From: Planctomycetota bacterium
Lineage (GTDB): Bacteria > Planctomycetota > Phycisphaerae > Sedimentisphaerales > Anaerohalosphaeraceae
Length of the DNA: 55,529 nt
NCBI GenBank assembly: GCA_003644205.1
Contig: QNBT01000001.1
Span: 1 to 55,529 of the forward strand
Direction of reading: 5' to 3'
Below, in pieces: positions 6,615 through 55,529 of this stretch. The position numbers and the translations under genes were made by a program. How positions within the stretch are numbered: the first letter of the stretch is position 1; every line of letters starts with the position of its first letter. Below the pieces are notes generated by a model, which was not told the DNA's origin, searched no databases, and saw only the letters and a program-made list of their open reading frames with translations.

Positions 6615-6645
6615 TGACACAATCTCCTTAGAAATCTCCGTTTAA

Positions 6646-26391: not shown

Positions 26392-26410
26392 GAATATAGA
26401 TGTATTCGAT

Positions 26411-26418: not shown

Positions 26419-26683
26419 TACTCCAACAGTTGAAACCACGTCAGATAGAAAGGCAAACTATGCTACTCGCCTTAACATGAAAGAACGGTCACTGACAATC
26501 AGAATGTCACAATTGAGAAGGCGGTGTTGTGTATCCTCGCCTGCTATGGAAAACCAGAGTTCTAGATCGTGCGACCAAAACAGAGGCAATCGGCATGAGG
26601 CACAGATATAATGCCAAGGCATGCAATTGAAAGCAAGGTCGCACCTAATCCAAAATCTGATGCCCAAGGATACTCAGAAAACG

Positions 26684-31293: not shown

Positions 31294-31321
31294 GCAGTCA
31301 AGTTGACATCGAAGCAAGCTA

Positions 31322-33506: not shown

Positions 33507-33514
33507 CAAAGACG

Positions 33515-34396: not shown

Positions 34397-34399
34397 CAG

Positions 34400-35269: not shown

Positions 35270-35273
35270 AATA

Positions 35274-36059: not shown

Positions 36060-36771
36060 GGTGGAGAATCTGACAGCACGATATGAGGCCATCACGGCCC
36101 TCAAGGAAATCTGCTTCGACGTAAACGAAGGAGAGATCGTGACAATGATAGGCCCGAACGGCGCAGGTAAATCCACCGCCCTAAAAGCAGTTAGTGGTGT
36201 CCTCGAAGCAACTGATGGCACCATTGAAAGTGGTGAGATTTTATTTGAAGGCGAGAGCATTAAGGGTTTAAGAACCGATGAACTGGTTGCCAAAGGAATA
36301 TGTTTGGTTCCAGAGGGTAGACGGGTTTTTCCTACGATGACGGTGCTGGAGAACCTTGAGATGGGGGCTTATAAACGGAAAGATAAGACAGCTATCAGTC
36401 AAGACATTTATATGGTTCTTACGCTCTTCCCACAACTTAAAGAAAGAGTTAAACAGAAAGCAGGCACCCTTTCCACAGGTGAGCAGCAGATGCTGGCTAT
36501 GGGCAGAGCATTGATGCTAAAGCCAAAGTTGCTGCTGGCCGATGAGCCGTCACTTGGGTTGTCTCCTAATTTCGTGGAATTGGTCTTTGATAAACTCGTA
36601 GAGATCAATGGAAAGGGCACAACTATATTGCTGGTAGAACAAAACGCATCAGAAGCCTTGAAAATTGCTCACCGGGCTTACGTTTTCAGTATCGGCGAAA
36701 TTGTACTGAAAGATAATTGTGAGAGCCTGCTGCACAATGAGGAAGTCAAAAAGGCTTTCTTGGGCGGTTAG
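36049..36771 (+). CDS. livF: Liv ABC transporter ATPase LivF
   Basis: A 240-aa ATPase with Walker [15 protein letters not shown], signature [13 protein letters not shown], Walker [14 protein letters not shown] and [11 protein letters not shown], typical of LivF. Starts at TTG (36049), with AGGAG 9 nt upstream inside the end of livG. Last gene of the operon. Confidence 0.93.
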
Positions 36772-38925: not shown

Positions 38926-39471
38926 CTAAAATGATATTTCACCGCTGCTGACCGCATCCGAAATCAGCGAGTCCAGGGCCTCCTCGTCGAGTGTGAGCGA
39001 GAGCACCTTTTTCGTGCCTTGCAGCTCGTGCACGTGTCCTTCCTGCCTGAGCCTTTTGTAAAGCCAGTCGGACCATTCCGGAATCACAGGAACCGGATAG
39101 CCGGACCTTACCGCTTCATACACAAGCGGGGCGGGATAGTCTTCGTCCACATACAACAGGTTTGCCGGGCCATCGGAGGATCTGAAAAAGCCTTCGCTGG
39201 CAACCATTTGATGCAGCAGCGTACCCGGCAATCTGGTGCTCATGATCCTGTATTTCTGACCATACGATGCCCCCGCTTCAATAACCGGCTCGGACATTAT
39301 CTCTATGCTTCTGCCGCTAACCAGCGCACTGGTTATGGCTTTAACGCTGCTGTCATGGCCCGCGACTGAGAGCAGGTAAAGATACGAATACTCGTCATGG
39401 GCATAGCCGTCGGTGAAGGCCTCAACATCTATACCATTGCTGTAGTCCCGGAACCTGACCTTTTCGAGCAT
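38926..39471 (-). CDS. Hypothetical protein of the helicase operon
   Basis: A 181-aa protein of mixed alpha/beta composition, starting MLEKVRFRDYSNGIDVEAFT and ending LISDAVSSGEISF. No motif recognised. It is tightly packed between the DNA methylase (6 nt) and helicase (8 nt), so a shared role in DNA processing is likely. I have an impression of similar genes next to such helicases on other elements but cannot verify it. Confidence 0.6.
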   Translation of the reverse strand: MLEKVRFRDYSNGIDVEAFTDGYAHDEYSYLYLLSVAGHDSSVKAITSALVSGRSIEIMSEPVIEAGASYGQKYRIMSTRLPGTLLHQMVASEGFFRSSDGPANLLYVDEDYPAPLVYEAVRSGYPVPVIPEWSDWLYKRLRQEGHVHELQGTKKVLSLTLDEEALDSLISDAVSSGEISF

Positions 39472-39477
39472 TCATAA

Positions 39478-40491
39478 TCACATAAGGTTCTTTATCTGAC
39501 CGTCCTGGGTCAGCACTTTGATGGAGACCCTGTACCTTTCAATCTCCCGTTCAAGCAGGACATCGCCTTGGTATTCCTGTTCTATGTGACTAACCTTCTC
39601 GACCTTGCCCCTGACAATGTGCCTGTCCTCACCCTCGCCTACCTTGCCGTCCAGGCACCCGCTTGCCAGCAACAGCCCCAGGTGCCCGGTATGCAGAGGC
39701 AGCGGGGGCCGGCCAACGCCGTCTTTGCTGTTGTGCCCGTCCCGGTTAATCTTTCGCCACAGGGCCGAGGACATCAGTTCCTTTTCCAGCTCTGCCTCGT
39801 CTATCAGGGTTGACCGGAACAGCCTGACTTCCGGTGACGCTGGCACCTCGTACATCGGCTCGTCCAGATACGGGATTTCGGGCAGTCCGGTGTAGGGAAT
39901 AGCAAACAGTTTGCCAAAGGAATCATCATCCAGGCTGTTCCTGGGTTTTTTTCTGCCAAACAAAACTATCTGCTTGAATTTTTCATACTCCCCGTCCTGG
40001 AACCTGTACGTGTTGAAATCCCCAAACCTGTAGGACAGGATTTTCGCAACATCTTCAGTAAGCCTTGCCTGCGGAATTATGTAGACCAGAACGCCCTCCG
40101 GCAGCAGATACCTGACTGTGCCTCTCAGAAAGGCCTTCTCGGTTCTCTCATGTCTGGACTCGTCTAACAGGCTGCTATTTTGCCAGTCATAAGGCGGGTT
40201 CAAAAATAGACATGAGATGGAATTGTTGCTCATCCTTATATCTTCGTAACCGCAGTGCAGGACGTGGTCGAGTGTGTCTGTTGCCTGTTTTGCCCTGTAG
40301 TCATCGAGTTCTATTCCGTAGGTGGTGGTGTTGGCACCGTTCACAACATTTCCCAAAGCTCCGCCTTCACCGCAGCAGGGGTCCAGAATGTTGACGTTTT
40401 CAGCGGGAAAGCTCAGAAAGGTTCCTACCCGCTCGGCCACGGACAAGGGCGTAGGGTAATAGCCCATCTTGATTCGTCCTTCCGGTCTCAT
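39478..40491 (-). CDS. DNA methyltransferase-like protein (DUF6094-like)
   Basis: A 337-aa SAM-dependent methyltransferase: GYYPTPLSVAERV start, motif I ILDPCCGEGGAL, YGIELDDYRAKQA, and catalytic LFLNPPYDW (NPPY, about residue 97), typical of N6-adenine enzymes. The C-terminal 130 aa lack a clear target-recognition pattern. Starts inside the primase stop (ATGA). This primase-methylase-helicase neighbourhood resembles DUF6094-type genes on plasmids, from memory. It may mark element DNA or act in replication. Confidence 0.8.
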   Translation of the reverse strand: MRPEGRIKMGYYPTPLSVAERVGTFLSFPAENVNILDPCCGEGGALGNVVNGANTTTYGIELDDYRAKQATDTLDHVLHCGYEDIRMSNNSISCLFLNPPYDWQNSSLLDESRHERTEKAFLRGTVRYLLPEGVLVYIIPQARLTEDVAKILSYRFGDFNTYRFQDGEYEKFKQIVLFGRKKPRNSLDDDSFGKLFAIPYTGLPEIPYLDEPMYEVPASPEVRLFRSTLIDEAELEKELMSSALWRKINRDGHNSKDGVGRPPLPLHTGHLGLLLASGCLDGKVGEGEDRHIVRGKVEKVSHIEQEYQGDVLLEREIERYRVSIKVLTQDGQIKNLM

Positions 40492-41663
40492 GTGGTGTCC
40501 CCTCCCTTTCTACCGTTACCGTTCAAATGCAAGTAGAACCGCCGGAACGTATCGCACTTAATCCTGTCGGTTTTGTAACCGCAGCGTTCATGGACAAGCC
40601 GAGTGTGGGCCGGATTGCCGTTGCTATTGCCACAACCGAATTGATAACCCTTGCCGCCTGCCTTGTAGGCCACGGCCACAACCTGCCTGGCCGTATGCTC
40701 TTCCAGGGGAGGCCTGCACCTGCCTGCAAAGGACTCAATCATCTCTGATGCTTCTTTCTGCGTATGTCCTGCAGAGCGGAACTTGCTCGCCAGTCTCAGG
40801 CACATTCCCGAACGCGAGCCCTCCGGCACACCTTCACGATACAGTTCAAGCTCCGCCTCACAGAGCGTCTCTTTCACATCACCATTATTTAGAAAGCTGC
40901 TGGGGTCCGGCAGGTCTGCGTGAGAAAGCTTCTCCGCCTGGGCAGTGCAATGCTCAAACGTGTCTACAGCATCAGGGACAGGTTCGATGCAGTAGCGGGG
41001 AATAAGACCGCTCTCGTTCGTCAGCCAGGGACGCCGTGGCTTTTGAGCAATACTGCGTATCTCCTCCGGCTCGCACGATAGCAGCTCTTCCATCTGGAGA
41101 GGGACTTTGTATAACCCTGATTTTGAATGCCGCGTGTTAGGAAGCCTCAACAAGCGCATCCTATCCGAGATACTGAAGTCCACTGTCTCCGGGTGTTTGA
41201 CCGCTGCTTTTTGAACAATAACCTGCCTCACCTCGCGGAAAACTCCTGGCAATTCTGTGCTCGGCTTCACTTGCCCAAAGGCCTCTGTTGCCACGGTTAT
41301 GTGAAAGCCTTTCATGCCGCTATAGTAAACCGCAAGTGCCTGCTCTGCGGCTCCCCAGTTATCGAGCAGATACCGTGTGACGTCCCTGGCGGTTTCGAGT
41401 GCTTGGCCAAGATCAGGGCTGTCGATGTCCAGCGGCAGGTAGTGAGCATAACAAGAACCCTGATAGCCTGATACCGAATGGCCGTTGCCCTGGATGTGCT
41501 CGCAAAGGCCCTGGTCGAACAGGAAATACGTGCAGTAGCAGTCCGTGTGGCCGTAGCGTTTAGTCAGGCTCGGCAGTTCTTCGACCTGTGTAATGTTGTT
41601 TCTGAAGCCCCGCATACCGCGCGATGCGAAATCAACATACTGGAAGTCCCCGATACCGGTCAT
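40488..41663 (-). CDS. Archaeo-eukaryotic-type primase
   Basis: A 391-aa protein with AEP catalytic landmarks: YLPLDIDSPDLGQAL (metal-binding DxD-like Asp pair, about 75) and AVYYSGMKGFHITV (SGxKGxH, about 117), then MRLLRLPNTRHSKSGLYKVP. A C-terminal helical PriCT-like domain follows (SRSGMCLRLASKFRSAGHTQ, ARQVVAVAYKA) with Cys in FGCGN and RCGYKTDRIKC. It would make primers for element replication. First gene of the operon to the helicase and a natural partner for the Orc1/Cdc6 initiator at 47314. Confidence 0.85.
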   Translation of the reverse strand: MTGIGDFQYVDFASRGMRGFRNNITQVEELPSLTKRYGHTDCYCTYFLFDQGLCEHIQGNGHSVSGYQGSCYAHYLPLDIDSPDLGQALETARDVTRYLLDNWGAAEQALAVYYSGMKGFHITVATEAFGQVKPSTELPGVFREVRQVIVQKAAVKHPETVDFSISDRMRLLRLPNTRHSKSGLYKVPLQMEELLSCEPEEIRSIAQKPRRPWLTNESGLIPRYCIEPVPDAVDTFEHCTAQAEKLSHADLPDPSSFLNNGDVKETLCEAELELYREGVPEGSRSGMCLRLASKFRSAGHTQKEASEMIESFAGRCRPPLEEHTARQVVAVAYKAGGKGYQFGCGNSNGNPAHTRLVHERCGYKTDRIKCDTFRRFYLHLNGNGRKGGDTT

Positions 41664-41942: not shown

Positions 41943-43901
41943 TTAGCTTCGATTTTCCCCGTGCGTTGTCCTGACCACAACCACCTCATCAAATCCCGCT
42001 TCGCGACATTTTTTGATGTTAGCCTGAACATCGGATTTGCCTGTCTCAATCTCAATAGCCACACGCTTGCCGTCCTTTGTAGCAACCAGGTCTACCGCTT
42101 TACCGTCCCCTATTGGCACCTCTTTTTGTACATTATAGCCCATTTGCCGATAACGCCTGGTAGCAAGCTCCTTGTGATACTCGTGCTCCAGACTGGCATT
42201 CTTCGGCAGGGCCTTGACCTTTATTCCCCATGATTCGACCAGCCCCTTGCCCTGGCTGACCAGCTTCAACAACGTGACGCTGCCATCTGGCACGCTGACC
42301 TTTTCCTGCTCAATCAAGTCCTTTTCCAGCAACCTCTGCTTGAGTTTAGTTCCTGTATGAGCACTCCAGCCGAGCCGCTGATACCTTTCAGTAATCACTG
42401 ACAAAGGGTGCTTGGCGATATCCAGGAGTAAACTACGCTCCCGTGCACCTATTTCCTGCTCTTTATTTTCCCTTCTGTCTGGTTCGGGAAGAGCCCGAAT
42501 AGCCTCGTTCAGAGCCGAACGCAACTCCTCCACCGTGCGCTTCAGGGAAGGACTTCGGGAATCTTTTCTTACAGTCTGCGGCGTTTTGAAAGAGGTTGAA
42601 ACAGGAAACTGAGGGAACTGTACAAGAAATGGGCTGACCCAGCGGTCCGGAAGTTTAACGATAGCGTGTCCTACTGGCAGCCTGCCGATGTAGTCCCAGT
42701 TTTCCCGTGGCAGTGTCAATGCTTTTCCCGCAGCCTCCACGTCATCCCCGTGCTTTAGGTTCATGCAGATGGTTACGCCCGTATTTCCCAGTGCAGGGAT
42801 GGTTAGCAAACTGGGGTTCTGGTCCAGAAGCACAAGGGCCTGTCCGAGATCCCTCATCTGCCTGAGTATCAGGTCGTGGACGGATTGTTCGTCACCGGCT
42901 CGCCGTAGAAATAGGTTGTGGGCTTCCTCGATGACTACCGCATGTTTGAAGGTTTGCGATCTGCCTTCCGCGAGACGGTAATAGTAAAGCCAGAGAAGGA
43001 AAGTCTGAGTGAATAGCTCCCGATCGGTTTCACTTCCCAGGCCGGGCAGTTCCAGGATTACCGGCTTGTCCAGGACATCTGCGAGTGTTGTCGCGCTATC
43101 GGAGTTCACCAGACGACCGATGGGGCCTGTGGTCAACTTGAACAGTATATTGAGTGCCGAAACCTTCCAGTCTTTTTCCCTCGAATCCGCAGGGTAGCCC
43201 TCGGTGTAATGCCGAATGGCATTGAAGGTTATCGGTTTGCCCCGCTCGGCTCCGAGAAATTCCAGGGCCTTGAGGAAGAAATATTCGACCCCACGTGTGC
43301 TGAGCAGGTGGTGTCCAGGCAGGTAAGTAGTACAAATAACAGAGACTATGTCACGCAGGTAGGCCTGACGCTGATTCTCCGAGAGGTTCACAGGGGGCTT
43401 GAGTGGATTGAAGGATAGCGATTCGGCCTCACCCAGGGGGAAAAGTAGAACGTCCTTACCCTCTGGCGTGTTGAGGAAGTGCTTGTAGTTTCCCCGCCAA
43501 TCAAGGATGATAAATGGCTTTCCGGCCCGCAAAAGATTCCAGACGAGCAGGTAACCCACGTTGGTTTTACCTGCACCGGAACGTCCGAGGATCACTATGT
43601 GTTGCGGAAGGTCGTTTTCTCGCAGCCCAAAGAGGTGCCCTGGTCTGTCTGCGTATGTTACGGTTCCAAGGGGATACTCACCTTTGGTTTTGTCTCCGGG
43701 TGGTGGCTCCAGCAGGATGTGTCGTCCAACATAACCCTCGTCCAGCAGTTCCGTTGCCAGAGCCTGGGCTACTGCACGGATGTCCTTTTCCTGGCCGGGG
43801 TCGAGAAGGACAGCCAGCCAGAAGGCGTCTGCCATGTCCCCTATAACTGGGCGAAGTTTTGCCAGAAGGTCTTTGAATTCTTTAGAATACATACAAATCA
43901 C
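41943..43901 (-). CDS. HerA ATPase fused to HTH and nuclease-like domain
   Basis: A 652-aa protein. The HerA/DUF87 ATPase (about 80-430) has LFGLRENDLPQHIVILGRSG AGKT as Walker A (near 110), FIILDWRGNY, and Walker B HAVVIEEAHNLFLRR. A winged-helix-like region follows (ERSLLLDIAKHPLSVITERY), and the C-terminal 80 residues are a PD-(D/E)XK-like fold: GYNVQKEVPIGDGKAVDLVA then RVAIEIETGKSDV. ATG at 43892 is an alternative to GTG at 43901, which overlaps the previous stop (GTGA). A DNA pump with nuclease suggests end processing, transfer or defence. Confidence 0.85.
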   Translation of the reverse strand: MICMYSKEFKDLLAKLRPVIGDMADAFWLAVLLDPGQEKDIRAVAQALATELLDEGYVGRHILLEPPPGDKTKGEYPLGTVTYADRPGHLFGLRENDLPQHIVILGRSGAGKTNVGYLLVWNLLRAGKPFIILDWRGNYKHFLNTPEGKDVLLFPLGEAESLSFNPLKPPVNLSENQRQAYLRDIVSVICTTYLPGHHLLSTRGVEYFFLKALEFLGAERGKPITFNAIRHYTEGYPADSREKDWKVSALNILFKLTTGPIGRLVNSDSATTLADVLDKPVILELPGLGSETDRELFTQTFLLWLYYYRLAEGRSQTFKHAVVIEEAHNLFLRRAGDEQSVHDLILRQMRDLGQALVLLDQNPSLLTIPALGNTGVTICMNLKHGDDVEAAGKALTLPRENWDYIGRLPVGHAIVKLPDRWVSPFLVQFPQFPVSTSFKTPQTVRKDSRSPSLKRTVEELRSALNEAIRALPEPDRRENKEQEIGARERSLLLDIAKHPLSVITERYQRLGWSAHTGTKLKQRLLEKDLIEQEKVSVPDGSVTLLKLVSQGKGLVESWGIKVKALPKNASLEHEYHKELATRRYRQMGYNVQKEVPIGDGKAVDLVATKDGKRVAIEIETGKSDVQANIKKCREAGFDEVVVVRTTHGENRS

Positions 43902-44503
43902 GTTGGAGCCTCGCGGTTTTCAGCCGATGCTGCCGTATTACCAAGGGCATCTATCTCACGTTGGAGCTTTCTGATTTCGCCCTTCAGCCAGACCAGGTCC
44001 CGCCAGCTCAGAAGAGCCTCCCGTCGACGTTCACGTTTAAGATCGGAAAGCCGGCGTTCCAGGTGCTTTCTATTTTCCGGGTCATTGAGCCCGCTTTTAA
44101 GTGTAGACAGGGATAGCTCGCAGTCTTGTATCTCAGGGTCGAGTTCTTCTAAAGCATACTGCATTAGGTGTTGCCTTTCTTTTTTAGCGGACTCCAGTTC
44201 ATCGAGAGCCCGCTGTAAAAAACTAAGCCGATCTGCAAACAAAGACTGTAACAGCCGGAGTGGTCGCAGTGGTCTTGCCTCATTAGAGGGTAACGGTTCT
44301 GTGGCAAGCCAGTCAGGTGGAACAGGCTCGCCTATGAGGTCACGGAAATCTTCCGCGCGTCCGACGCTGCTGCGGTTAGTTGAGCGGGGTTCGGAGCTGT
44401 CTGCGGTGTCGTGAGAATAAATCTCTTCCTTTGAGTCGAAGCTCAATGGGTAAGGCTGGTACTTCGGATATATCTTCCCTACCACGTTTTTCCGGCCACG
44501 CAT
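43898..44503 (-). CDS. Coiled-coil partner of HerA-nuclease
   Basis: A 201-aa protein: about 75 polar residues, then a long coiled coil (SLFADRLSFLQRALDELESA through LVWLKGEIRKLQREIDALGN). GGGTGAAG precedes the ATG. Its stop overlaps the HerA start (GTGA), so the two are coupled and likely interact. No family recognised. Confidence 0.65.
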   Translation of the reverse strand: MRGRKNVVGKIYPKYQPYPLSFDSKEEIYSHDTADSSEPRSTNRSSVGRAEDFRDLIGEPVPPDWLATEPLPSNEARPLRPLRLLQSLFADRLSFLQRALDELESAKKERQHLMQYALEELDPEIQDCELSLSTLKSGLNDPENRKHLERRLSDLKRERRREALLSWRDLVWLKGEIRKLQREIDALGNTAASAENREAPT

Positions 44504-45274: not shown

Positions 45275-46000
45275 CTAATTCAGACAGGTAAAATCAAAGC
45301 TCCGGTAATCGAGCTTCATTTTTCCGGTGGTAATATCCGTGCCCCACTTAAACAAAAAACTCATAACAGAGTTTGACAACCGCTCTCTGAAAGCAGAATC
45401 CAAACCACAACCCAAAGAATCATCTAAATCACATAGCCATAAAGGGACATGATCAGGCAACAAAACTTCTTCATCCCACAAGGGGGCTAAATGCTCTATT
45501 AATTGTTTTCCGCCCAGGGCCAGCAAAGTGTACACGTCGTCAATCGAATTATCAAAGATTTGCGAAATATCTTTTGTGCTCATCATCTCAATATGACGAA
45601 ACACAAGCACCTGGTGAAAATCCTCCTCAACCCTGTTCAATGCCGTTGCTAATTTGATCATTTTTTCATCACTTAAAAGCGGCTCGCTTTTTGCACGATG
45701 ACCGTTGTTGCTGAGTTTTGATTCTTCTTTCAGTACGTCCGGGGCGATATCATCGACCAAGCCAGCTACGCTTACAAAAGGGCTGGATTGAGGCATTTCT
45801 AATTGTGCTATAAGGGGATACGTTGCTATAAACGTGTAAACTGTAATTTTCTCAGCTACATGTTTGTTGTTGGTATATTTACTGCACCTTAGTAAAATAT
45901 ATCGTAAGAGAAACTCGACCACTTTACCATATGCGTCCAACATCATATCATTAAGATCAGCTGATGAAACATCTTCTAAGGGAATATCTTCTGCTTTCAT
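45275..46000 (-). CDS. Sigma-70-like regulatory protein
   Basis: A 241-aa protein. Residues 20-60 (VEFLLRYILLRCSKYTNNKH) resemble a sigma region 2 helix. Residues 125-180 (ALNRVEEDFHQVLVFRHIEM, STKDISQIFDNSIDDVYTLL) have the region 4 helix-turn-helix pattern, and a 60-aa C-terminal extension follows. The -35 and -10 contacting residues are not well conserved, so it may be a divergent sigma or regulator. ATG at 46000 follows GAGGAG. It sits directly after the integrase gene, a combination I associate with planctomycete elements. Confidence 0.6.
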   Translation of the reverse strand: MKAEDIPLEDVSSADLNDMMLDAYGKVVEFLLRYILLRCSKYTNNKHVAEKITVYTFIATYPLIAQLEMPQSSPFVSVAGLVDDIAPDVLKEESKLSNNGHRAKSEPLLSDEKMIKLATALNRVEEDFHQVLVFRHIEMMSTKDISQIFDNSIDDVYTLLALGGKQLIEHLAPLWDEEVLLPDHVPLWLCDLDDSLGCGLDSAFRERLSNSVMSFLFKWGTDITTGKMKLDYRSFDFTCLN

Positions 46001-46014
46001 GTTTTTCTTTCTCC

Positions 46015-46644
46015 TCAGGTATATAGTTTTTCCAGTGATTTGGTAACGTCGGGATCCATCACGTCTGCGTAAACTTCCGTGGTGTGAGAATTCGAATGAC
46101 CAAGTTGCTTTTGTACAAGCCTGAGATTGTAGCCGCTGGCCTTGTAAAGCTGGCATGCGTATGTATGCCTGAGGCAGTGGATGGAATAATGTCCGGGCAG
46201 ACCCGCTCTGGCAGCTGTTCTTTTGAAGGCTTTTTCAATGGCTCTTGATGTCATATGTCCACCGGTGTGACTGGACCGCAGCAGCGGGTCGCCCGGTCGA
46301 ACCGGTTCCTCGCCAGCCTGTTTCCAATGCAAATATTCTTCATAATGTCGTTTGAATTCACTGTTGAATCGAACAAGCCTCTTTTTGCCGCCTTTGCCGT
46401 TTCGGACAATAAGAGAACCGGTACGGTCATCCACGAAAAAATCCCCGCAGTTCAGTTGTGCAATTTCCGTGACTCGCAGGCCCGTCGACAGAGCAAGGTG
46501 TATGATGAAATAGTCCCGTACCGTGGCCTTGTGGTCATGAAGCAAGGCTTGTTCAGCCAGTTTCCTGGCTGTCCCCAGGAGCCGTTTTACCTCTTGTGGC
46601 GAGAGGAACTTGCTCCGGTCCAAAACCCAGTCGAAGCCAGCCAT
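46015..46644 (-). CDS. XerC/D-like tyrosine recombinase, short form
   Basis: A 209-aa recombinase consisting of little more than the catalytic domain: LALSTGLRVTEIAQL (Arg I), HCLRHTYACQL (HxxR), QKQLGHSNSHTTEVYADV (His and Tyr nucleophile) are all intact. It lacks the usual N-terminal core-binding domain (about 90 aa), so it is short for the family. ATG at 46644 follows GAAGGTG; a TTG at 46674 is in frame. Head of a three-gene operon. Confidence 0.85.
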   Translation of the reverse strand: MAGFDWVLDRSKFLSPQEVKRLLGTARKLAEQALLHDHKATVRDYFIIHLALSTGLRVTEIAQLNCGDFFVDDRTGSLIVRNGKGGKKRLVRFNSEFKRHYEEYLHWKQAGEEPVRPGDPLLRSSHTGGHMTSRAIEKAFKRTAARAGLPGHYSIHCLRHTYACQLYKASGYNLRLVQKQLGHSNSHTTEVYADVMDPDVTKSLEKLYT

Positions 46645-46797
46645 TTTCGATACACCTTCGCTTAACTCCTTCAAAAAAGTTCGCAGTTGGTGTAGAAAGC
46701 GAACTTTTCAAGTGCGGCTGAATTGCTGCAACTGCTGCCTATACAAGCGGTTATGAGGCAGTATTTAATATTGGATGTGAAAGTTTATAAATGTTGC

Positions 46798-46923
46798 CGA
46801 GATTCTGGCTTTGGGACAAAACTCATTTTGATAATCGGTAGCAGGAGGTCCTAATAGGTGTCGAATTTCACAAAAACCGACCGATAGCAAGCGGCAATAT
46901 TGTCCCAAAGCTCGAGATTCTGG
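46798..46923. repeat. Nested direct and inverted repeats
   Basis: CGAGATTCTGG at 46798-46808 recurs directly at 46913-46923. Immediately inside are inverted 11-mers CTTTGGGACAA (46809-46819) and TTGTCCCAAAG (46900-46910), enclosing 80 bp. This may be an initiator or recombinase binding array. Confidence 0.7.
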
Positions 46924-47025
46924 GAAGCTGAAGGGATAGATGCGGAAGTGATTATAATTACAGTGCAGACAACCGGTTTTGAACTTGTAGTGTTGAAGAA
47001 ACGTATAATATGCGCAAGAAAAAAA

Positions 47026-47051
47026 GTTCAGATCTTACACCAAATCTGAAC
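47026..47051 (-). terminator. Hairpin with T-run on the minus strand
   Basis: GTTCAGAT/ATCTGAAC stem of 8 bp with a 10-nt loop; on the minus strand it is followed by seven T. It could insulate the integrase operon from transcription through the origin region. Confidence 0.5.
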
Positions 47052-47281
47052 CTTTTAGAACCAACTATAACAATACTATAACACTGCTGTCGATTTTGTC
47101 AAATAAAAAATGACACGATTTTAGGATAACAGGGAATCCTCGTCGCTGACTACTTGCGTCAGCCGATAACAGTCGGAGCGGTGGTGGGAATGGCTTTTAT
47201 GAAGTTATCGTTTCTGTGGTTTATACTTTTCAGCTCTTTGTTTAAACTTTTATCCGCACAAAGCGCACCATCCGCGTAAAC

Positions 47282-47289
47282 CTTATAAA
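47282..47289 (+). promoter_or_regulatory. TATA-like box of the Orc1/Cdc6 gene
   Basis: CTTATAAA with its first base 32 nt before the ATG and no ribosome site (the ATG is preceded by AATTCCTCACT). A textbook archaeal leaderless layout. Confidence 0.6.
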
Positions 47290-47313
47290 CTTAACGGGTA
47301 TTAATTCCTCACT

Positions 47314-48357
47314 ATGCAGTGGCACAACGAACAGGTCATTCTTGCCAACCTGGATGTTCTCAGCGAAAGCCATGCCGTTGAGGAGCTTTACGCAAGAGAA
47401 GCCCAGCTAAAGGAGATCGGGATTTGTCTTAGACCAATCACTGAAGGTAAAAAGCCCATGAACGCCTGGCTGCACGGGAAGCCGGGTGCTGGCAAAACAG
47501 CCACCGCTCGGTGGCTCCTGAAAAAGCTTAAAAGTGAAGCCGGTATTCGCGGCATCTACGTCAATTGCTGGGAGAATCCTACCTTTTTTTCGGTGCTGGA
47601 TTGTATTGCCAGAGAGTTGCGAATGCTTGGAGCAGAGAAACTCAGTACATCCTTCAAGCTCGACAGGCTCAAAAAGCACCTCTCTAACGACCGCTTGGTC
47701 ATAGTCCTGGACGAGATAGACCAGTCACCACCAAAGGAACGCAATGCGATCCTCTACAACCTGCACGACCTTCCAGGTGTTGGGCTGGTATGTGTGTGCA
47801 ACTCGGAACATGTTTACTTCGACCTTGAGGAAAGGGTGCAGTCAAGGCTTAATCCGTTCCGTATATTTTTTGAGCAGTACTCACCGGAGGAACTGTTCAA
47901 GATTTTAGATCGGCGGGCACAGTACGCCCTCGCTCTTGGAGCGTATAGTGAGCAGCTTTTGCGGACAATAGCCGGCCTTGCCGATGGCGACGCAAGAATA
48001 GCAATACAGACTCTCAAAAACGCGGCCTATCTGGCCGAGAACGACAACCACGAAAAAATCAGGAAACACCACGTGCATCGTGCCTGGAACTCTGCGAAGG
48101 ACTTGAAGAAGGTCTTTCTACTGCGTAAGCTCACCGACCACCACTGTCTTCTTTATGAGCTAATTGCAAAGAATGGCGGAATTTTGTCCGGTGACCTCTG
48201 GCGTTTGTACTTGAAGACGTGCCGTGCAACTCGCACTAAGCCCATTGCTGTTCGGACCTATTCACAGTACTGCAACAAACTCGTGGAACTTGGCCTTGTG
48301 CAGGCAAAGAGAGCAGCGATACAGGGGAAGGTAAGGAAGTTCAGCACAATTCAGTAG
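47314..48357 (+). CDS. cdc6: Orc1/Cdc6-type replication initiator ATPase
   Basis: A 347-aa AAA+ protein. Walker A WLHGKPGAGKTATAR (about 50-63), Walker B LVIVLDEIDQ (about 130), sensor-type GLVCVCNSEHVYFDLEERVQ, SRLNPFRIFFEQYSPEELFK, and sensor 2 in GLADGDARIAIQTLKNAA, all of which match archaeal Orc1/Cdc6. A C-terminal winged helix follows (LTDHHCLLYELIAKNGGILS to KFSTIQ). It binds origin DNA and recruits the replication machinery. Such initiators are normal in archaea and exceptional in bacteria. The TATA-like leaderless promoter and adjacent repeat region fit an archaeal-type replicon. At 347 aa it is a little shorter than most chromosomal forms. Confidence 0.87.
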   Translation: MQWHNEQVILANLDVLSESHAVEELYAREAQLKEIGICLRPITEGKKPMNAWLHGKPGAGKTATARWLLKKLKSEAGIRGIYVNCWENPTFFSVLDCIARELRMLGAEKLSTSFKLDRLKKHLSNDRLVIVLDEIDQSPPKERNAILYNLHDLPGVGLVCVCNSEHVYFDLEERVQSRLNPFRIFFEQYSPEELFKILDRRAQYALALGAYSEQLLRTIAGLADGDARIAIQTLKNAAYLAENDNHEKIRKHHVHRAWNSAKDLKKVFLLRKLTDHHCLLYELIAKNGGILSGDLWRLYLKTCRATRTKPIAVRTYSQYCNKLVELGLVQAKRAAIQGKVRKFSTIQ

Positions 48358-48616: not shown

Positions 48617-49996
48617 TCAGTTGTGAGAGCCAACAGATGCTTCGATCACCGTCCGTTTCTCCTGAAGCCCGACTCTAATCTCGCCTATAGCTTTCAGAAG
48701 TTCCGGTGTCTGCTTAGACTTCTCCAGAAGGGCATTCATAAACCGCTCCATCATACGGTCGTAAACCTGCCTGCTCTCAATGAATTCCTGCACCTTCTTT
48801 TCCACCTTAGCTTCAATCTCTGATTCAAGAGAGACCTGCCGGTCTGGGAAAACCTTCATCTCCGTAGGAAGCCCACACGTACATGTCTCCACGTACAGCG
48901 GGTTATGTTTTCCGCATCCAGGGCACTTTACGCTGCGGTTCAACTCGGCAGCGTTCTCAGTGGGCAGTCCATTCATTTTCTTCTGGATCTGCTCCAAGTT
49001 GTTGTAGGACAGGTGTGAATAGTGCTTCATAACCTTGGAGTCTTTGGAAAGCCCGTGAAACACCTTGATGGCCTGTTCAGGCCAGCCAGCCGCCTGTTTG
49101 TGTGTAATTGAGCACGCCCGGAACAGGTGCGGATACACCCGCTTGTTAATGCCCGCGTTAACGGCAGTTACTTTAAGGATTTTGCCGACCGTTTGAGCGT
49201 AGAGGGGAACGCTTCCGTCGCGCTTCAGGTTGCTCCAGAGCGGAGCGTTGGGATCGTCCTTCAGCGGGTGATAATTCACCCAGCTGGCCAGGTGCCTTTT
49301 GCACGAGACCAGGGGAATTACTCTAGGCCGCGTCTTGCTGACCGGGAGCGTTGCTTTGACGACGGTGGAAGTGAACTCAAGGTGCCTGATGTTCATCGAT
49401 AACATCTCCGAGATACGTGCCCCCGACTCGTAGAGAAAAGATATCATAGCCTTGTCCCTCGGGTTGCGGGCGTGGCGTATCATCTCAACCACTTCTTCAA
49501 AAGTCAGCAACTGCTCGGGCTCATGGATTCGTGTCGTGTCCCCGTTTGACTTGATCCATTTCACTTTGCGGGGATATTCCTCGTTGTCTCCCTCCAGCCA
49601 GCGGTAGAACCGCTTCAGAGTCACCTTGTAACCATGTAACGTTCCCTGTGAGTAAACGCCGCCACTTTCACAGGCATGGCCTTTTGAAAGAAACGTCAGA
49701 AGGCAACGCAGATCCTGCTCGGTGACAGCGTCAAAATCCTTTTTCAGCCAGGTTCCGAGTTTGCGGAGCTTGTGTGTATAGAAGGTTAGACGCCTCTCTG
49801 ATACCTCCGGTGATATGTGGCTGAGAAACCTGAAAATCAACTCCTTGTTTCTCGCCGTCAGTTCGCGCGCGTCTACGACTCTCTCAAGCCCCCTGATGTC
49901 AAGGGCTGAAAACGTTGCCGACAAATCAAGTTTGCGGATAAACGAACTTACAGTTTGCCTTTTCTGTGCGCTTAAAGATTCTGCCTTCATCACCAT
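48617..49996 (-). CDS. Tyrosine recombinase with C-terminal zinc ribbon
   Basis: A 459-aa XerC/D-family recombinase of archaeal style. It has a SAM-like core-binding domain (about 50-150), then FLYESGARISEMLSM (Arg I), HLFRACSITHKQAAG (box II), and HGLSKDSKVMKHYSHL with the Tyr. After the catalytic domain come a zinc ribbon (VKCPGCGKHNPLYVETCTCG) and a coiled coil. ATG at 49996 is preferred to GTG at 50005 because CTTAAAAA lies 29 nt upstream. It probably resolves or integrates the element; a palindrome suited to such an enzyme lies just upstream. Confidence 0.85.
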   Translation of the reverse strand: MVMKAESLSAQKRQTVSSFIRKLDLSATFSALDIRGLERVVDARELTARNKELIFRFLSHISPEVSERRLTFYTHKLRKLGTWLKKDFDAVTEQDLRCLLTFLSKGHACESGGVYSQGTLHGYKVTLKRFYRWLEGDNEEYPRKVKWIKSNGDTTRIHEPEQLLTFEEVVEMIRHARNPRDKAMISFLYESGARISEMLSMNIRHLEFTSTVVKATLPVSKTRPRVIPLVSCKRHLASWVNYHPLKDDPNAPLWSNLKRDGSVPLYAQTVGKILKVTAVNAGINKRVYPHLFRACSITHKQAAGWPEQAIKVFHGLSKDSKVMKHYSHLSYNNLEQIQKKMNGLPTENAAELNRSVKCPGCGKHNPLYVETCTCGLPTEMKVFPDRQVSLESEIEAKVEKKVQEFIESRQVYDRMMERFMNALLEKSKQTPELLKAIGEIRVGLQEKRTVIEASVGSHN

Positions 49997-50017
49997 ATCA
50001 ACCACTTCCTTAGTTAG

Positions 50018-50137: not shown

Positions 50138-50428
50138 TTGGAAGGGGTCTTAATAAAACTTACTGTTCTCAATGCCATAAAAGCACAAATCGCAAGCTCT
50201 TTCTCCGACAGCCTAAAATGGCCGCAGACAAAACCTCCTGTAATGTCAGGCAGCTACAGGCCAGAAAGTCCATACCCGGCAAAGTGCAAGGAGTGCATCT
50301 GCGGGATTGAAAACGACAGAGGCATCTGGTGCGCTGTGCTCAAGAAAATCCCATCTTCCAGGGAGGTAAAGCAGTGCCGCCGCTTCTGTCCGAAAGTAAT
50401 ACTTGAAGATCCGGCAGGCATTGAGTAG
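50138..50428 (+). CDS. Small Cys-rich hypothetical protein
   Basis: A 96-codon frame with Cys spacing AKCKECICGIENDRGIWCAV and QCRRFC, likely one metal site. A TTG at 50138 or ATG at 50243 are the possible starts; the upstream part (FSDSLKWPQTKPP) looks coding, so the longer form is listed. It precedes the OB-fold gene on the same strand. Confidence 0.5.
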   Translation: MEGVLIKLTVLNAIKAQIASSFSDSLKWPQTKPPVMSGSYRPESPYPAKCKECICGIENDRGIWCAVLKKIPSSREVKQCRRFCPKVILEDPAGIE

Positions 50429-50456
50429 CTGCCCTGAACATGTGTGGAGGTGTAAC

Positions 50457-50891
50457 ATGAGAGGGACAATCGAACAGGTCTGGGAGAACGAGAGCAGAAA
50501 GGGACAGAAATACCTGACCGTCCAGGTCGGGGGAGAGCGATACAGCGTCTGGGACGACAAGTACTTCGACACGCTGCAGGAAGGCGTGACCGTCGACTAC
50601 GACTTCAGGCAGAGCGGGAATTTCAAGAACATGACGGACATAGAGCCCGTTGATGGCAACAGCAACGGACTGCCACGATACCAGCCGAACGGCAAGGACA
50701 GGCAGATCGCAAGGATGTCATGCCTGAAATCCGCCAGCGAGATTCTTGCACCCGTGCAGCTTGACCCTGATGCCAAGAAGGATCTGACCATAGAGACGGC
50801 GAGATTCTTTGAACGCTACGTCTTCGAAGGCGGGCAGGAAGTTCCGGCACAGAATAGCGGCGGGGGGAACCATGGCAGAGGCCGACAGTGA
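50457..50891 (+). CDS. OB-fold single-strand-binding-like protein
   Basis: A 144-aa protein: OB-like MRGTIEQVWENESRKGQKYL, TVQVGGERYSVWDDKY (residues 1-65), linker, then RMSCLKSASEIL and a long helix TIETARFFERYVFEGG. The tail is Gly-rich. Paralogue of 18534-18926. GGAGGT precedes the ATG, and its end overlaps the Cas4-like nuclease gene by 20 nt, so it probably presents ssDNA to that nuclease. Phage genomes carry similar OB-plus-helix proteins, from memory. Confidence 0.7.
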   Translation: MRGTIEQVWENESRKGQKYLTVQVGGERYSVWDDKYFDTLQEGVTVDYDFRQSGNFKNMTDIEPVDGNSNGLPRYQPNGKDRQIARMSCLKSASEILAPVQLDPDAKKDLTIETARFFERYVFEGGQEVPAQNSGGGNHGRGRQ

Positions 50892-51669
50892 ATCCTCTTC
50901 AGACAGGCAGGTGGGAGCCATCTCGACGATAAGGCCCCACCTGTCAGTCTCCCAGCTTAAGATGTACCTTCGCTGTCCTCTTCAATACTTCTTCAGATAC
51001 GTATGTGATCTGAAGTCTCCGCCGACAGGCGGCCTGACCCTTGGCCGGACGATCCATCAGACCCTTAACGACAACTACAGGCAGAAAATGAAGACCGGCC
51101 ATGATATTATTGTCCCTCATATAACGGAGCTTTTCAGCGAACACTGGGAACGGGAAGTCAGGGAAACGGAGTTCAAAGACGGGGAGAGTCCGGGGAAGTT
51201 CAAAGATGACGGCGTGGGTCTTCTGAAGGCATACTTCGATCAGGTCGCTCCGGGCGTCCAGCCGGTCGAAGTCGAACTGGAATTCCTGATCGACACACCG
51301 GGAACGCGGCTTCCTCTGAAAGGATACATCGACCTCATCGACGATCAGGGATGCATCATCGACCACAAGACAACGAAGCGGAGCTTCCCGGAAAACACCG
51401 CGGAAAAGGACGTCCAGTTGACAGCCTACTCGCTGGCCTTCCGCACGCTCTACGGCCAGGAAGAAAAAGGGGTCCGCCTCGATGTGATGGTCAGAAACAA
51501 ACAACCCAAGATACAGCAGTTGGACGGGACAAGAACTCAAGCAGACATAGACCGTTTTGCCCGCCTCGCAGGGCAGGTCGAAAACGCAATCCGGTCCGGT
51601 GTATATTATCCAAACGAAAGCTACATGTGCGGCATCTGCGGCTATCAGGGAATGTGCGAGAAGTGGTAA
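50872..51669 (+). CDS. Cas4/RecB-like PD-(D/E)XK nuclease
   Basis: A 265-aa nuclease. LSVSQLKMYLRCPLQYFFRY opens the RecB-type fold; GRTIHQTLND gives the motif His, LKGYIDLIDDQGCIIDHKTT the catalytic D...DxK, and QLTAYSLAFR the QxxxY motif. One Cys in LRCP plus CGICGYQGMC at the C-terminus form the iron-sulfur cluster typical of Cas4/AddB-like enzymes. No CRISPR array or other cas genes are present, so it is a stand-alone exonuclease for recombination or replication. GGGGGG precedes the ATG at 50872. Confidence 0.87.
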   Translation: MAEADSESSSDRQVGAISTIRPHLSVSQLKMYLRCPLQYFFRYVCDLKSPPTGGLTLGRTIHQTLNDNYRQKMKTGHDIIVPHITELFSEHWEREVRETEFKDGESPGKFKDDGVGLLKAYFDQVAPGVQPVEVELEFLIDTPGTRLPLKGYIDLIDDQGCIIDHKTTKRSFPENTAEKDVQLTAYSLAFRTLYGQEEKGVRLDVMVRNKQPKIQQLDGTRTQADIDRFARLAGQVENAIRSGVYYPNESYMCGICGYQGMCEKW

Positions 51670-51806: not shown

Positions 51807-54356
51807 ATGGCCAAAAAGCAATTCTATGATATTGGAGATGAAAAGACAAAAATAGAAGTTAAGATCAGTTATCGCATTATCCAACTCTTCTCTGAAGGTC
51901 TTTACACGAGTCCCAATAAAGCTATAGAGGAACTTGTGTCTAATGCTTTTGATGCCGGCGCACATAATGCCCATGTGATTCTCTCACCTGACTTGGTCGC
52001 AAAGGACTCTACAATAGTTGTAGTGGATGATGGTACTGGCATGGACATCAACGGTCTCAAGAAGCACTGGATAATAGGTGTCAGCGACAAGAGGAACGAT
52101 TCTGGAATTGCAAACGGCAGGAAACAAATAGGCAAGTTTGGTATTGGCAAGCTGGCAACATTTGTACTTGCCAGACGCCTTACCCATATATGTAAGCGTA
52201 ATGGTCATTTCTACTCCACCAGCATGGACTACAGTAGGATTCCAGAAGGAGAACAGGGCGGTATAGAGACAGAGGAGAAAGTGACATTACCACTTCGTGA
52301 GCTTACGGAAGAGCAAGCAAAAGTGGCCATTGGTAAATGGGTTAATGGAAATAAGCCCGGCTTCAAGGCATTCAAGCTGTTCGGACCAAAGGCGACTGAT
52401 AGCTGGTCCATCGCCGTTATGTCAAATCTAAAGGACCTAGCCACCGAGCTGAAGCGTGGACGGCTCCGATGGGTTTTGCAGACCGCCATGCCTCTCAGAG
52501 ACGATTTCATTTTGTATCTTAATGGGGATCAAGTACCACCTTCCAAGCTAGGAAAGCGTCTGAAGAGGTGGGGGTTGGGTAAGGATATGAAGAAACTCCA
52601 GAAACCGGCCCCTGTTGATGACCTCGAGGTGACCAGTGATTTACAGGAGCCTGAGAAGTCAATACATCGATATGGACTCACTCACCCTGAGTTGGGACGG
52701 GTCACTGGCTATGCTGAGATATATAGGGACCTTCTAACTGAAGGTAAGTCTGCGGATGTTGGTAGAAGTCACGGATTCTTTGTTTATGTTTGTGGGAGAT
52801 TAGTGAACATTGATGATGAATACTTTGGAATTGACAGGAACCAGTTAAGACATGGTACATTCTCCAGATTCCGCATGGTAGTGTATATTGACCGTCTGGA
52901 CAAAGATTTACGATCTTCCAGAGAAACCATCCGGGACGGAGTGCTCGTTAATATTACTCGTAATATCCTACGGGCAGTTTTCAATCAAGTCAGGACTGAA
53001 CATGAAAAACTGGAGCGAGAGGCCTCGTCTGCGGTCAGTATGTCGGTCCGTCTTGCGAGTAGCCCGGGCAGTCTAACCCGCGGACCTCTCATCAGCCTTA
53101 TTGAGGCAGCACTTGAGGGAAAATTCTCACCAAGGTACTTGAGATTCCCTTCAGATTTATCACGAGCCAAACAGAAGGAATTCCTAAAGCAACTAAAGGA
53201 GAGAATCGAAGACCCTGCCAAGTTCGTGCAGGAGGTAATGGTGGATATCTTGGAGGATCGAGGGATTGCACTTTATGATGCTGAGAATGCGGTACTCATC
53301 ATAAACAAAACGCATCCCTTTGTCGCTTCATTCTTGGACGAGTATGAAACTAACCGTAGGAGTCTCGCTTTGGAATTATATGCCATGTCTGAGGTTCTCC
53401 TGGAGGCATACTTATATGAAGTTACAGGTGACGAAAATATGGTCCGAGATGTAATGGACCTAAGGGACGAACTCCTCAAGCATCTCGTCCGTTCCAGTGG
53501 CAAGAAGAACGCTTATTTGGTCGCTCAGGCATTGGAGGATTCTGTTACAGATGCGGACGCTCTTGAGATAGCGCTTGTTGATGCTTTTGATAGTATGGGC
53601 TTTGATGTGAGCCGAGTAGGGGGCAACGGTAAACCTGATGGTATTGCCAAGGCGTACCTTGGAGCGTCAGCCAAAGGTGGTGAGCAGCGCTACATAGTAA
53701 GCCTAGAAGCCAAGAGCAAGCAGAGACTGGGAGTAAAGGTAAAGAAAAGTCAGGTGGGGGTCTCTACGGTCGCGCGACAGCGCGATGAGTTCCATTGTGA
53801 TCATGCTATAGTTGTCGGTCCTGACTTCGAGACAAAGAAGGGTAACAAGTCGGCCGTAATCAGAGAAATTAAGGCCAACTCAAGCAAGACTGGCAAGACC
53901 ATTACCCTGATGAGAGTATGTGATTTAGCGAGTTTGGTGCGACTTGTTCCACTCAAGAGAATAGACCTGGGAAAGCTACGAGAGCTATTCCAGACGTGCA
54001 CAAGTTCCATAGAATCGGGAGAATGGGTTAAAAAGCTTAAAGAGGAGAAAAAGCAGTCAGTTCCCCCGTGGAGGGATATCCTTGAGGAGATATGGAAGTT
54101 ACAGAACGAGACCCCGGGTGAACCAGTGGAGTTCAAGGAAATCACTACCGCGATGCGGCGAGCGAAAAAGAGCGACTTAAAGAAAGACAAAATGAGAGGA
54201 TACTGCCGTGCATTGGCTGCATTGGCTCCTGATTATGTGTCGGTTCGTACAAACTCTATTGAGTTGAGTCAGCGACCAGATAAGGTACTTGATGCGATGA
54301 AGGCAACCTTTGCGGCCTATCCTGAAAATGAACAGGTCCAAGCAGAAGCAGTATAG
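51807..54356 (+). CDS. MORC/MutL-like GHKL ATPase fused to nuclease
   Basis: An 849-aa protein. The N-terminal GHKL ATPase has EELVSNAFDAGA (N box, about 42), VVDDGTGMD (G1) and IGKFGIGKLATF (G2). The middle (about 200-580) is helical. A PD-(D/E)XK-like domain follows: LVDAFDSMGFDVSRVGGNGK, PDGIAKAY, then RYIVSLEAKSK (D...ExK, about 607-635). A DNA methyltransferase gene starts 25 nt downstream. MutL/MORC-type ATPases in restriction-modification operons have been described (Iyer and colleagues). ATP-driven DNA sensing or looping with cleavage of unmodified DNA is the likely role. GAGG lies near the ATG. Confidence 0.82.
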   Translation: MAKKQFYDIGDEKTKIEVKISYRIIQLFSEGLYTSPNKAIEELVSNAFDAGAHNAHVILSPDLVAKDSTIVVVDDGTGMDINGLKKHWIIGVSDKRNDSGIANGRKQIGKFGIGKLATFVLARRLTHICKRNGHFYSTSMDYSRIPEGEQGGIETEEKVTLPLRELTEEQAKVAIGKWVNGNKPGFKAFKLFGPKATDSWSIAVMSNLKDLATELKRGRLRWVLQTAMPLRDDFILYLNGDQVPPSKLGKRLKRWGLGKDMKKLQKPAPVDDLEVTSDLQEPEKSIHRYGLTHPELGRVTGYAEIYRDLLTEGKSADVGRSHGFFVYVCGRLVNIDDEYFGIDRNQLRHGTFSRFRMVVYIDRLDKDLRSSRETIRDGVLVNITRNILRAVFNQVRTEHEKLEREASSAVSMSVRLASSPGSLTRGPLISLIEAALEGKFSPRYLRFPSDLSRAKQKEFLKQLKERIEDPAKFVQEVMVDILEDRGIALYDAENAVLIINKTHPFVASFLDEYETNRRSLALELYAMSEVLLEAYLYEVTGDENMVRDVMDLRDELLKHLVRSSGKKNAYLVAQALEDSVTDADALEIALVDAFDSMGFDVSRVGGNGKPDGIAKAYLGASAKGGEQRYIVSLEAKSKQRLGVKVKKSQVGVSTVARQRDEFHCDHAIVVGPDFETKKGNKSAVIREIKANSSKTGKTITLMRVCDLASLVRLVPLKRIDLGKLRELFQTCTSSIESGEWVKKLKEEKKQSVPPWRDILEEIWKLQNETPGEPVEFKEITTAMRRAKKSDLKKDKMRGYCRALAALAPDYVSVRTNSIELSQRPDKVLDAMKATFAAYPENEQVQAEAV

Positions 54357-54381
54357 TTCATATATGAAGGTGAAATAGCTA

Positions 54382-55529
54382 ATGAAGGAAATGAGACCTA
54401 TACACCCTTTCCCAGCGCGAATGGCGTCTTCAATCGTCTTGAGTAGGCTGCCCTCTGCCAAACAACAACCGCTTACTGTGCTCGATCCTATGGCTGGCTC
54501 TGGAACTACATTGGTTACTGCAAGGTCGAAAGGACATAAAGCCATCGGATGCGATACCGATCCGCTGGCCGTATTAATTTCGAAAGTTTGGTGTGCCGAT
54601 ATAGACCAAGAAAGATGCACCCAAGCCGCAGAAGCAGTCGTAAAAAAAGCACGACAGCGATATCACCATATCTCCGAAGCAAAGGCATATCCATCAGATG
54701 CCGATGATGAGACTCGTTCTTTCATCAAGTTTTGGTTTGACACTAATGCAAGAAAGCAGCTTCACTCACTTGCAGAAGCCATTTCAGAAACTAAAGGGAC
54801 ATTAGTCCGTGATTTCTTATGGTGCGTGTTTTCACGCCTAATTATCACTAAACGGATGGGAGCCTCGCTTGCCATGGACGTTTCACATAGCCGGCCACAC
54901 AGAGTCTATGAACGTTCTCCAATAAATGTAGTAAAAAAGTATGAGGAAATGGCTGTAAAAGTGGTAAGACTATGCCCTTTTGATGGTTCAGAGAACATCC
55001 CAAAGTCTAAGGTATACAAGAGAGACGCACGGAACTTGCGTTTTGACGATGGAAGTATTGATGTTGTGATAACGTCTCCTCCATATCTGAACGCTATTGA
55101 TTATCTTCGTGGGCATCGTATGTCGCTTGTTTGGATGGGACATAAGATTTGCAATCTTCGCAACCTCCGAGCAAACAATGTAGGAGCCGAAGTCGGTTTT
55201 AAAGGAGATTTGAATGATGCTAGTTTTTTTACAATTCTTAAGGAGATGGGAGTTGGTGAAAAAACTCCTGAAAGACTAAGGCGGATGTTACTAAGATACA
55301 TCCACGACATGGAGGCTATACTAAGCGAAACGTCCCGTGTGCTGACCGAGAAGGGGCAAGCAGTATTTGTAGTGGGTGATTCGACCATTGGGGGCACATA
55401 TATCAGGAACTCAAGAGCGATAGCAAGTCTGGGAAAAAGACATGGTTTCAAGCTCGTGTCTACGAGACGAAGACAAATACCTAATAACCGCCGGTATCTC
55501 CCACCTCCCACGTCCAAAGGTGCAGGCAA
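54382..55529 (+). CDS. DNA N4/N6 methyltransferase, 3' end beyond window
   Basis: 382 codons are visible with no stop before the window ends, so the gene is partial. Motif I is VLDPMAGSGTTLVTA (about 34), CDTDPLAV follows, and catalytic motif IV is VITSPPYLNAIDYLR (about 230), as in beta-class N4-cytosine/N6-adenine enzymes. A long helical insert (90-200) separates them. AAGGTGA lies 8 nt before the ATG. It is the modification partner of the GHKL-nuclease gene and would protect host DNA. Confidence 0.88.
   Translation, partial: MKEMRPIHPFPARMASSIVLSRLPSAKQQPLTVLDPMAGSGTTLVTARSKGHKAIGCDTDPLAVLISKVWCADIDQERCTQAAEAVVKKARQRYHHISEAKAYPSDADDETRSFIKFWFDTNARKQLHSLAEAISETKGTLVRDFLWCVFSRLIITKRMGASLAMDVSHSRPHRVYERSPINVVKKYEEMAVKVVRLCPFDGSENIPKSKVYKRDARNLRFDDGSIDVVITSPPYLNAIDYLRGHRMSLVWMGHKICNLRNLRANNVGAEVGFKGDLNDASFFTILKEMGVGEKTPERLRRMLLRYIHDMEAILSETSRVLTEKGQAVFVVGDSTIGGTYIRNSRAIASLGKRHGFKLVSTRRRQIPNNRRYLPPPTSKGAG

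Follow-up and report, generated by a model that had tools for sequence, protein, structure and literature searches.

Why does a bacterium carry a gene for the replication initiator of archaea and eukaryotes? In bacteria, DnaA initiates replication and DnaB is loaded, whereas in archaea and eukaryotes initiation falls to Orc1/Cdc6 and the helicase loaded is MCM; mobile elements bearing Orc1/Cdc6 are known in archaea. An earlier note, made from the letters of one planctomycete sequence, described an Orc1/Cdc6 gene close to bacterial-style genes and suggested a cross-domain replicon. The stretch of DNA analyzed here (the window; 55,529 bp) is one complete contig of a fragmented MAG (424 contigs, 2.64 Mb, 79% complete).

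The window encodes an archaeal-type Orc1/Cdc6 protein in a bacterial host

The ORF at 47314 to 48357 (plus strand) encodes a 347-amino-acid AAA+ initiator-family protein that is a true Orc1/Cdc6 of archaeal type, as the earlier note had claimed. Its TIGR02928 (orc1/cdc6) score of 191.2 bits lies above the curated cutoff of 181.3, Pfam Cdc6_lid matches at 56 bits, and the sequences of archaeal Cdc6/Orc1 crystal structures align along its length (E = 2e-30). The ATPase motifs are intact, with Walker A GKPGAGKT (residues 55 to 62), Walker B VIVLDEID, and sensor-2 GDAR; residues G55, G58, G60, K61, and D133 are invariant over 41 alignment rows, and T62, E134, D136, and R228 are nearly so. An AlphaFold2 model built with 13 related sequences reached a mean pLDDT of 87.9, and its first eight Foldseek matches in the PDB were all archaeal Orc1/Cdc6 structures, the best being 2qby_A, S. 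solfataricus Cdc6-1 on origin DNA (TM 0.81). The Pfam Cdc6_C score, 22.8 bits, is slightly below the cutoff of 25.1, and the C-terminal winged helix was recognized through the full-length fold match, which includes the C terminus. Comparison with the orc1 gene of the sister element described below gave a dN of 0.16 and a dS of about 2 (dN/dS, about 0.08), demonstrating that the protein is maintained under strong purifying selection.

The host of the contig is bacterial, a planctomycete. The MAG encodes DnaA twice (212 and 177 bits), and DnaA was also detected in all other Orc1-bearing hosts tested. A host tRNA-Ser(GCT) gene (48 to 140, minus strand; ARAGORN), which probably marks the integration neighborhood, lies at the contig's left tip and matches the copy in a genome of the same genus (G001) with 99% identity over 94 bp; this end of the contig is therefore continuous with planctomycete DNA. 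Relatives of the MAG include the Planctomycetota records JAKLKS010000002.1 (G147:C222) and JAKLDR010000010.1 (G374:C2). No credible MCM was found in seven Orc1-bearing bacterial genomes, in which the best score of 30 bits was noise of the kind also seen in E. coli; the best score in the window MAG, which is 79% complete, was 26 bits, compared with 301 bits in a Diapherotrites archaeon.

Recombination and replication genes surround orc1

Upstream of orc1, a short Xer-type tyrosine integrase comprising the catalytic domain only (46015 to 46674, minus strand; PF00589, 108 bits) ends 640 bp away, and its best NCBIfam match is XerA_Arch, below cutoff. The earlier note had placed both an integrase and a sigma-like gene here; the former stands, while the ECF-sigma-like ORF (45275 to 46156) is weak and under all curated cutoffs. 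Convergent with orc1 on its other side is a tyrosine recombinase with a C-terminal zinc ribbon (48617 to 50005, minus strand; PF00589, 61 bits), the cysteine set of which is invariant among the four such recombinases aligned. Farther along lie a small conserved ORF that appears OB-fold/SSB-like by eye (50403 to 50891, plus strand) and a RecB/Cas4-like PD-(D/E)XK nuclease (50809 to 51669, plus strand; PF12705, 107 bits).

To the left of the integrase, on the minus strand, a coiled-coil protein (43898 to 44503; profile scan, relatives by eye) adjoins a HerA/CedD-like DNA-translocating ATPase (41943 to 43901) recognized by profile matches, with a C-terminal winged helix-turn-helix (wHTH) and PDDEXK-like region assigned by eye. 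The best NCBIfam match of the ATPase is CedD, at 80.7 bits against an equivalog cutoff of 600; among seven HerA-like proteins aligned, the other six are 33 to 38% identical to the window copy. In the same operon as this HerA-side backbone is an archaeo-eukaryotic-type (AEP) primase with a PriCT-1-like C terminus (40488 to 41663, minus strand; phrog_16345 primase, 83 bits; PriS, 30.6 bits; PriCT_1, 20.6 bits, slightly below cutoff). It is followed by a DUF6094 methyltransferase (39478 to 40491, minus strand; 140 bits), a small protein in the operon of the methyltransferase (38926 to 39471, minus strand; ORF list and profile scan), and an SNF2-like helicase (36836 to 38917, minus strand; profile scan). 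The primase, the SNF2-like helicase, and the zinc-ribbon recombinase had all been named in the earlier note and are indeed where it put them. Neither a relaxase nor any type IV secretion component was recognized by Pfam in the proteins scanned from this incomplete contig, and conjugation is therefore not supported for the window element.

Near the left end, a second tyrosine integrase (269 to 1390, plus strand; PF00589, 78 bits) is a candidate for the integrase of the element; it lies on the 5' side of tRNA-Ser, an unusual arrangement. No second copy of tRNA-Ser was found as a direct repeat in the window contig, and 14 bp at 44893 that match the 5' end of tRNA-Ser were attributed to chance, because the match is inverted and does not extend. 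The right end of the contig falls inside a methyltransferase gene. The contig ends do not overlap, giving no sign of the circular form that the earlier note had raised.

The window holds several further genes of note. A full-length SIR2-fused prokaryotic Argonaute (20273 to 23377; 1,034 amino acids; PADLOC pAgo model, 1067 bits) is defense cargo, and a type II restriction-modification pair (24444 to 26439) consists of a D12-class methyltransferase and a TdeIII-like endonuclease in convergent orientation. At 51807 to 55529, an 849-amino-acid HATPase protein with weak REase_II-type PADLOC matches adjoins the DNA methyltransferase that the contig end truncates, possibly as a restriction-like system. 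A ribonucleotide reductase large chain (2061 to 4424; 423 bits) adjoins a second, shorter HerA-like ATPase (4430 to 6620) that stands beside a separate wHTH and PDDEXK-like protein (by eye); the latter resembles the C-terminal region of the HerA-like ATPase at 41943 to 43901. A ThiF/E1-like protein with weak E1-E2 matches in PADLOC is encoded at 8660 to 10120 and in a second locus (L060, 529 to 2049), and a Salinigranum plasmid carries ThiF and an E2/UBC gene near orc1. A branched-chain amino acid ABC operon (LivK to LivF; 30139 to 36771) has nontransport genes between LivK and LivH; in locus L075 (G003:C381, 558 to 7207), the inserts differ (a methyltransferase-like gene and a membrane protein) and a reverse transcriptase follows. 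We rejected the idea that this operon is a fixed chromosomal core. It is patchy among relatives (3/34) and thus probably belongs to cargo or a variable island.

A sister element is bounded by direct repeats at a tmRNA gene

When three planctomycete Orc1 proteins were aligned and the alignment was used to search genome contigs, a copy was recovered in the Phycisphaerae MAG CSMAG_2751 (locus L047), a genome that has DnaA. Its full-length Orc1 is 76% identical in amino acid sequence to that of the window. The element sits on a 73-kb contig (G440:C56) and has the same backbone order as the window, namely SNF2, DUF6094, HerA, Orc1, and nuclease block, with different intervening genes and with the HerA gene inverted. 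Amino acid identities are 90% for SNF2, 88% for the DUF6094 methyltransferase, and 74% for the HerA-like ATPase, and the nuclease block is 87% identical in DNA (50179 to 51668 of the window versus 12605 to 14094 of L047). The zinc-ribbon recombinases are more variable than the backbone, with only 30% identity between the two elements. Directly upstream of orc1 in CSMAG_2751 is a wHTH and RelE-like gene pair (L047, 9209 to 9840) that is absent from the window; the wHTH looks archaeal by eye, but a tblastn search of plasmids returned no match to it, and the resemblance was given no weight.

The right end of the CSMAG_2751 contig holds a tmRNA, a gene of bacteria, and an integrase abuts its 3' end. 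A 21-bp probe from this 3' end has exactly one further copy, at C56:21852 (0 in 200 shuffles). Read by eye, the two sites form an exact 29-bp direct repeat, ATGGAGGCGGGGGGATTCGAACCCCCGTC, at C56:21850-21878 and 72597-72625, one copy lying inside the tmRNA 3' end, and the repeats thus delimit an element of 50,747 bp. A second probe revealed no tmRNA copies further inward. Outside the repeats are RHS-repeat, dehydratase-like, and cytochrome-like genes that by eye belong to a planctomycete chromosome. CSMAG_2751 therefore displays both hallmarks of an integrative element, direct repeats at a tRNA or tmRNA gene and an integrase, and the window displays only the tRNA and integrase at its left tip.

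Orc1 recurs with HerA-like ATPases and recombinases

Single-protein searches of genome contigs and of viral contigs returned no Orc1 relatives. The alignment query returned twelve from genome contigs and none from viral contigs, so that nothing points to a viral family. Among sampled genomes, 9 of 392 from the phylum (E <= 1e-10, with scoring limited to a few candidates in each) and 18 of 397 from the class (E <= 1e-25) encode an Orc1-like protein, and only 4 of the 18, among them the window's own genome, score as close relatives. The earlier description of Orc1/Cdc6 as exceptional in bacteria accordingly needs qualifying, in that distant relatives occur in about 2 to 5% of the planctomycete genomes sampled.

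Linkage to a HerA-like ATPase was observed in the window, on the L047 contig, in L033, L036, and L048, and for the more distant planctomycete Orc1 proteins of L037, L039, L034, and L041. The order is coiled-coil, HerA, Orc1, and zinc-ribbon recombinase in L033 (G374) and Orc1, recombinase, and HerA in L036 (G147); the 7.7-kb contig L048, from a MAG labeled Proteobacteria, has consecutive coiled-coil, HerA-like, and Orc1 genes. As in the window, small coiled-coil ORFs precede HerA in L033, L037, L039, and L048 (by eye), and the zinc-ribbon recombinase family also adjoins orc1 in L033, L036, and L047. Other distant Orc1 proteins, in L043 and L045, are near Replic_Relax and integrase genes. These two loci are small integrative elements from genomes of the host's own taxonomic family in which a divergent clade III Orc1/Cdc6 (see below) stands beside Replic_Relax and a tyrosine integrase. 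Clade II orc1 genes (L037, 8865 to 11163; L005) form divergent pairs with a gene for a coiled-coil membrane protein, and one clade II copy sits in a single-contig 4.25-Mb planctomycete genome (G007). A clade I-like match in another single-contig genome (G713) was set aside as closed-chromosome context, as it abuts runs of N.

Bacterial Orc1 proteins form three clades among archaeal Orc1

In a tree of 41 rows, in which archaeal chromosomal Orc1 is thinly sampled and clades II and III are on long branches, the planctomycete and other bacterial Orc1 proteins split into three distinct clades that nest within archaeal diversity. A single bacterial lineage for Orc1, one of the outcomes that the earlier note had held would speak against its reading, was not obtained, and one clade of all bacterial Orc1 was rejected by the AU test (P = 1.6e-5); the pairwise tests were only moderately significant (I plus II, P = 0.015; II plus III, P = 0.019). 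Clade I (support, 100/98) contains the window, L047, L048, G374a, G147a, and G147b. It is sister (92/85, not starred) to the short Orc1 of haloarchaeal plasmids and viruses, and the starred group holding both (99/96) includes a Diapherotrites sequence. The nearest archaeal Orc1 is only about 33% identical to that of the window. The zinc-ribbon recombinase of CSMAG_2751 is 40 to 42% identical to recombinases of haloarchaeal plasmids, whereas no listed bacterial plasmid exceeds 29%, and in two of the haloarchaeal plasmids orc1 lies 1 to 2 kb from such a recombinase.

A conserved box lies upstream of orc1

The 639-bp intergenic region upstream of orc1 (46675 to 47313) is a candidate origin or control region. 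Within it, a 26-bp box, TTTGTTTAAACTTTTATCCGCACAAA (47237 to 47262, plus strand), is identical at 25 of 26 positions in the CSMAG_2751 element, in a comparison of two loci only; it lies 51 bp from the orc1 start codon, about the same distance as in CSMAG_2751, and the surrounding upstream DNA is not conserved. The box may be an operator, a promoter, or a binding site, and it is a candidate Orc1 site. A 12-bp inverted repeat (46808/46900) and an 11-bp direct repeat upstream of orc1 were not significant (15/100 and 11/100 shuffles, respectively), and the inverted repeat was dropped as an origin because it is within chance.

Origin of the locus and role of Orc1

A simple explanation for an archaeal-type gene in a fragmented bacterial MAG could be contamination, with the contig or its right half misbinned or wrongly joined near 46.6 kb. 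The archaeal character of Orc1 and the XerA_Arch match of the upstream integrase would fit, but the tRNA-Ser of the host's genus is on the same contig, and the same genes, at 74 to 90% identity, are on an independent contig with tmRNA and planctomycete genes. The chimeric join considered in the earlier note is also contradicted by the same neighbors in the independent assemblies L047, L048, L033, and L036, and DnaA is present in every host. Contamination is thus very improbable. Hardly more credible is a replicon moving between archaea and planctomycetes at the present day, the cross-domain replicon in its strict sense of one living in both domains. The sister relationship to haloarchaeal plasmid and virus Orc1 and the resemblance of the CSMAG_2751 recombinase to haloarchaeal plasmid recombinases near orc1 would favor it; against this, the best archaeal Orc1 identity is low, the backbone was found only in bacterial genomes and in no archaeal record, and the HerA-like ATPase of the window has weak plasmid matches, mostly to bacterial plasmids. 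We think it reasonably likely that the window is a large part of a Phycisphaerae-type Planctomycetota integrative element that took up an archaeal-type Orc1/Cdc6. The earlier reading is thus supported in part: a true Orc1/Cdc6, archaeal in its phylogeny, is carried by a planctomycete on mobile DNA, with genes for replication and recombination as its neighbors.

From its family, we infer that Orc1 probably serves the element's own replication or copy control and does so without MCM. A tyrosine recombinase would first excise the element. Orc1 would then bind a site near its own gene, for which the region at 46675 to 47313 with its 26-bp box is the candidate, and would mark or melt the origin or control copy number. 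The AEP primase of the element, together with the bacterial helicase and polymerase of the host, could copy the element, no MCM having been found, and the HerA-like ATPase may move or segregate its DNA. Alternatively, the protein could be an archaeal-type AAA+ that acts as a DNA-binding regulator or as the ATPase partner of the recombinase or HerA rather than as an initiator. Its constant company is a tyrosine recombinase and HerA rather than any replicative helicase, and its hosts are without recognizable MCM. MuB/IstB-like ATPases serve transposases, and MuB is among the Foldseek matches of the model, as a PHROG "DNA transposition protein" (49 bits) is among the profile matches. In the portion of PMC9738581 available, archaeal Orc1-2 is described as a damage-response regulator and not an initiator. 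However, the winged helix and overall fold best match origin-bound initiators, the closest relatives are Orc1 proteins of plasmids and viruses, which are usually regarded as replication proteins, and the primase gene shares an operon with the HerA-side backbone. A noninitiator role is possible, if on the unlikely side. More tentative than our reading of the window itself is the broader proposal that these are bacterial integrative elements started by Orc1/Cdc6 recruiting DnaB or a HerA-like ATPase, not MCM, and that Orc1 was gained at least three times in Planctomycetota.

Significance and comparison with known systems

An Orc1/Cdc6 under purifying selection in bacteria without recognizable MCM makes its MCM-free loading or action directly testable and, if the initiator role is true, would represent a working hybrid of life's two replication systems. 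The three clades indicate that mobile DNA of bacteria repeatedly acquired a core archaeal replication gene, a point relevant to proposals that replication machineries were exchanged or displaced by mobile elements early in evolution. On a practical level, finding orc1 in a bin does not by itself prove that the bin is contaminated with archaeal DNA. Neither Orc1/Cdc6 on mobile elements of planctomycetes nor a family of bacterial integrative elements that pairs Orc1/Cdc6 with a HerA-like protein turned up in an incomplete literature search.

Among known proteins, S. solfataricus Cdc6-1 and A. pernix Orc1 (2qby and 2v1u) share with the window Orc1 the whole-length fold including the winged helix (TM 0.81 and 0.74), Walker A and B, and sensor 2, but they are cellular initiators that use defined origin boxes and an MCM helicase, whereas the window Orc1 has a candidate box and no MCM. 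The HerA-like ATPase resembles HerA/CedD DNA translocases in its HerA central domain and its best NCBIfam match and differs in its extra C-terminal wHTH and PDDEXK-like region, in its linkage to Orc1, and in scoring far below the CedD cutoff. According to the portion of PMC5862659 available, bacterial AEP primases are almost always encoded by integrated mobile elements; these elements resemble the window in being integrated mobile elements with an AEP-PriCT-type primase, and that portion mentions Cdc6 once and planctomycetes not at all, with no description of an Orc1/Cdc6 initiator found in it. The closest counterparts are the haloarchaeal plasmid and virus Orc1 proteins ("Cdc6/Cdc18 family," about 335 amino acids) of Halosegnis, Halococcus, and Salinibaculum plasmids and Haloferax phage LSV-48N. 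The window differs from them in an identity of at most about 33%, in a bacterial host with DnaA and no recognizable MCM, and in its backbone, yet the Orc1 proteins are alike in size, in their AAA+ and winged-helix domains, in belonging to nearest clades, and in being carried on mobile DNA, and two of the plasmids have a recombinase of related type near orc1.
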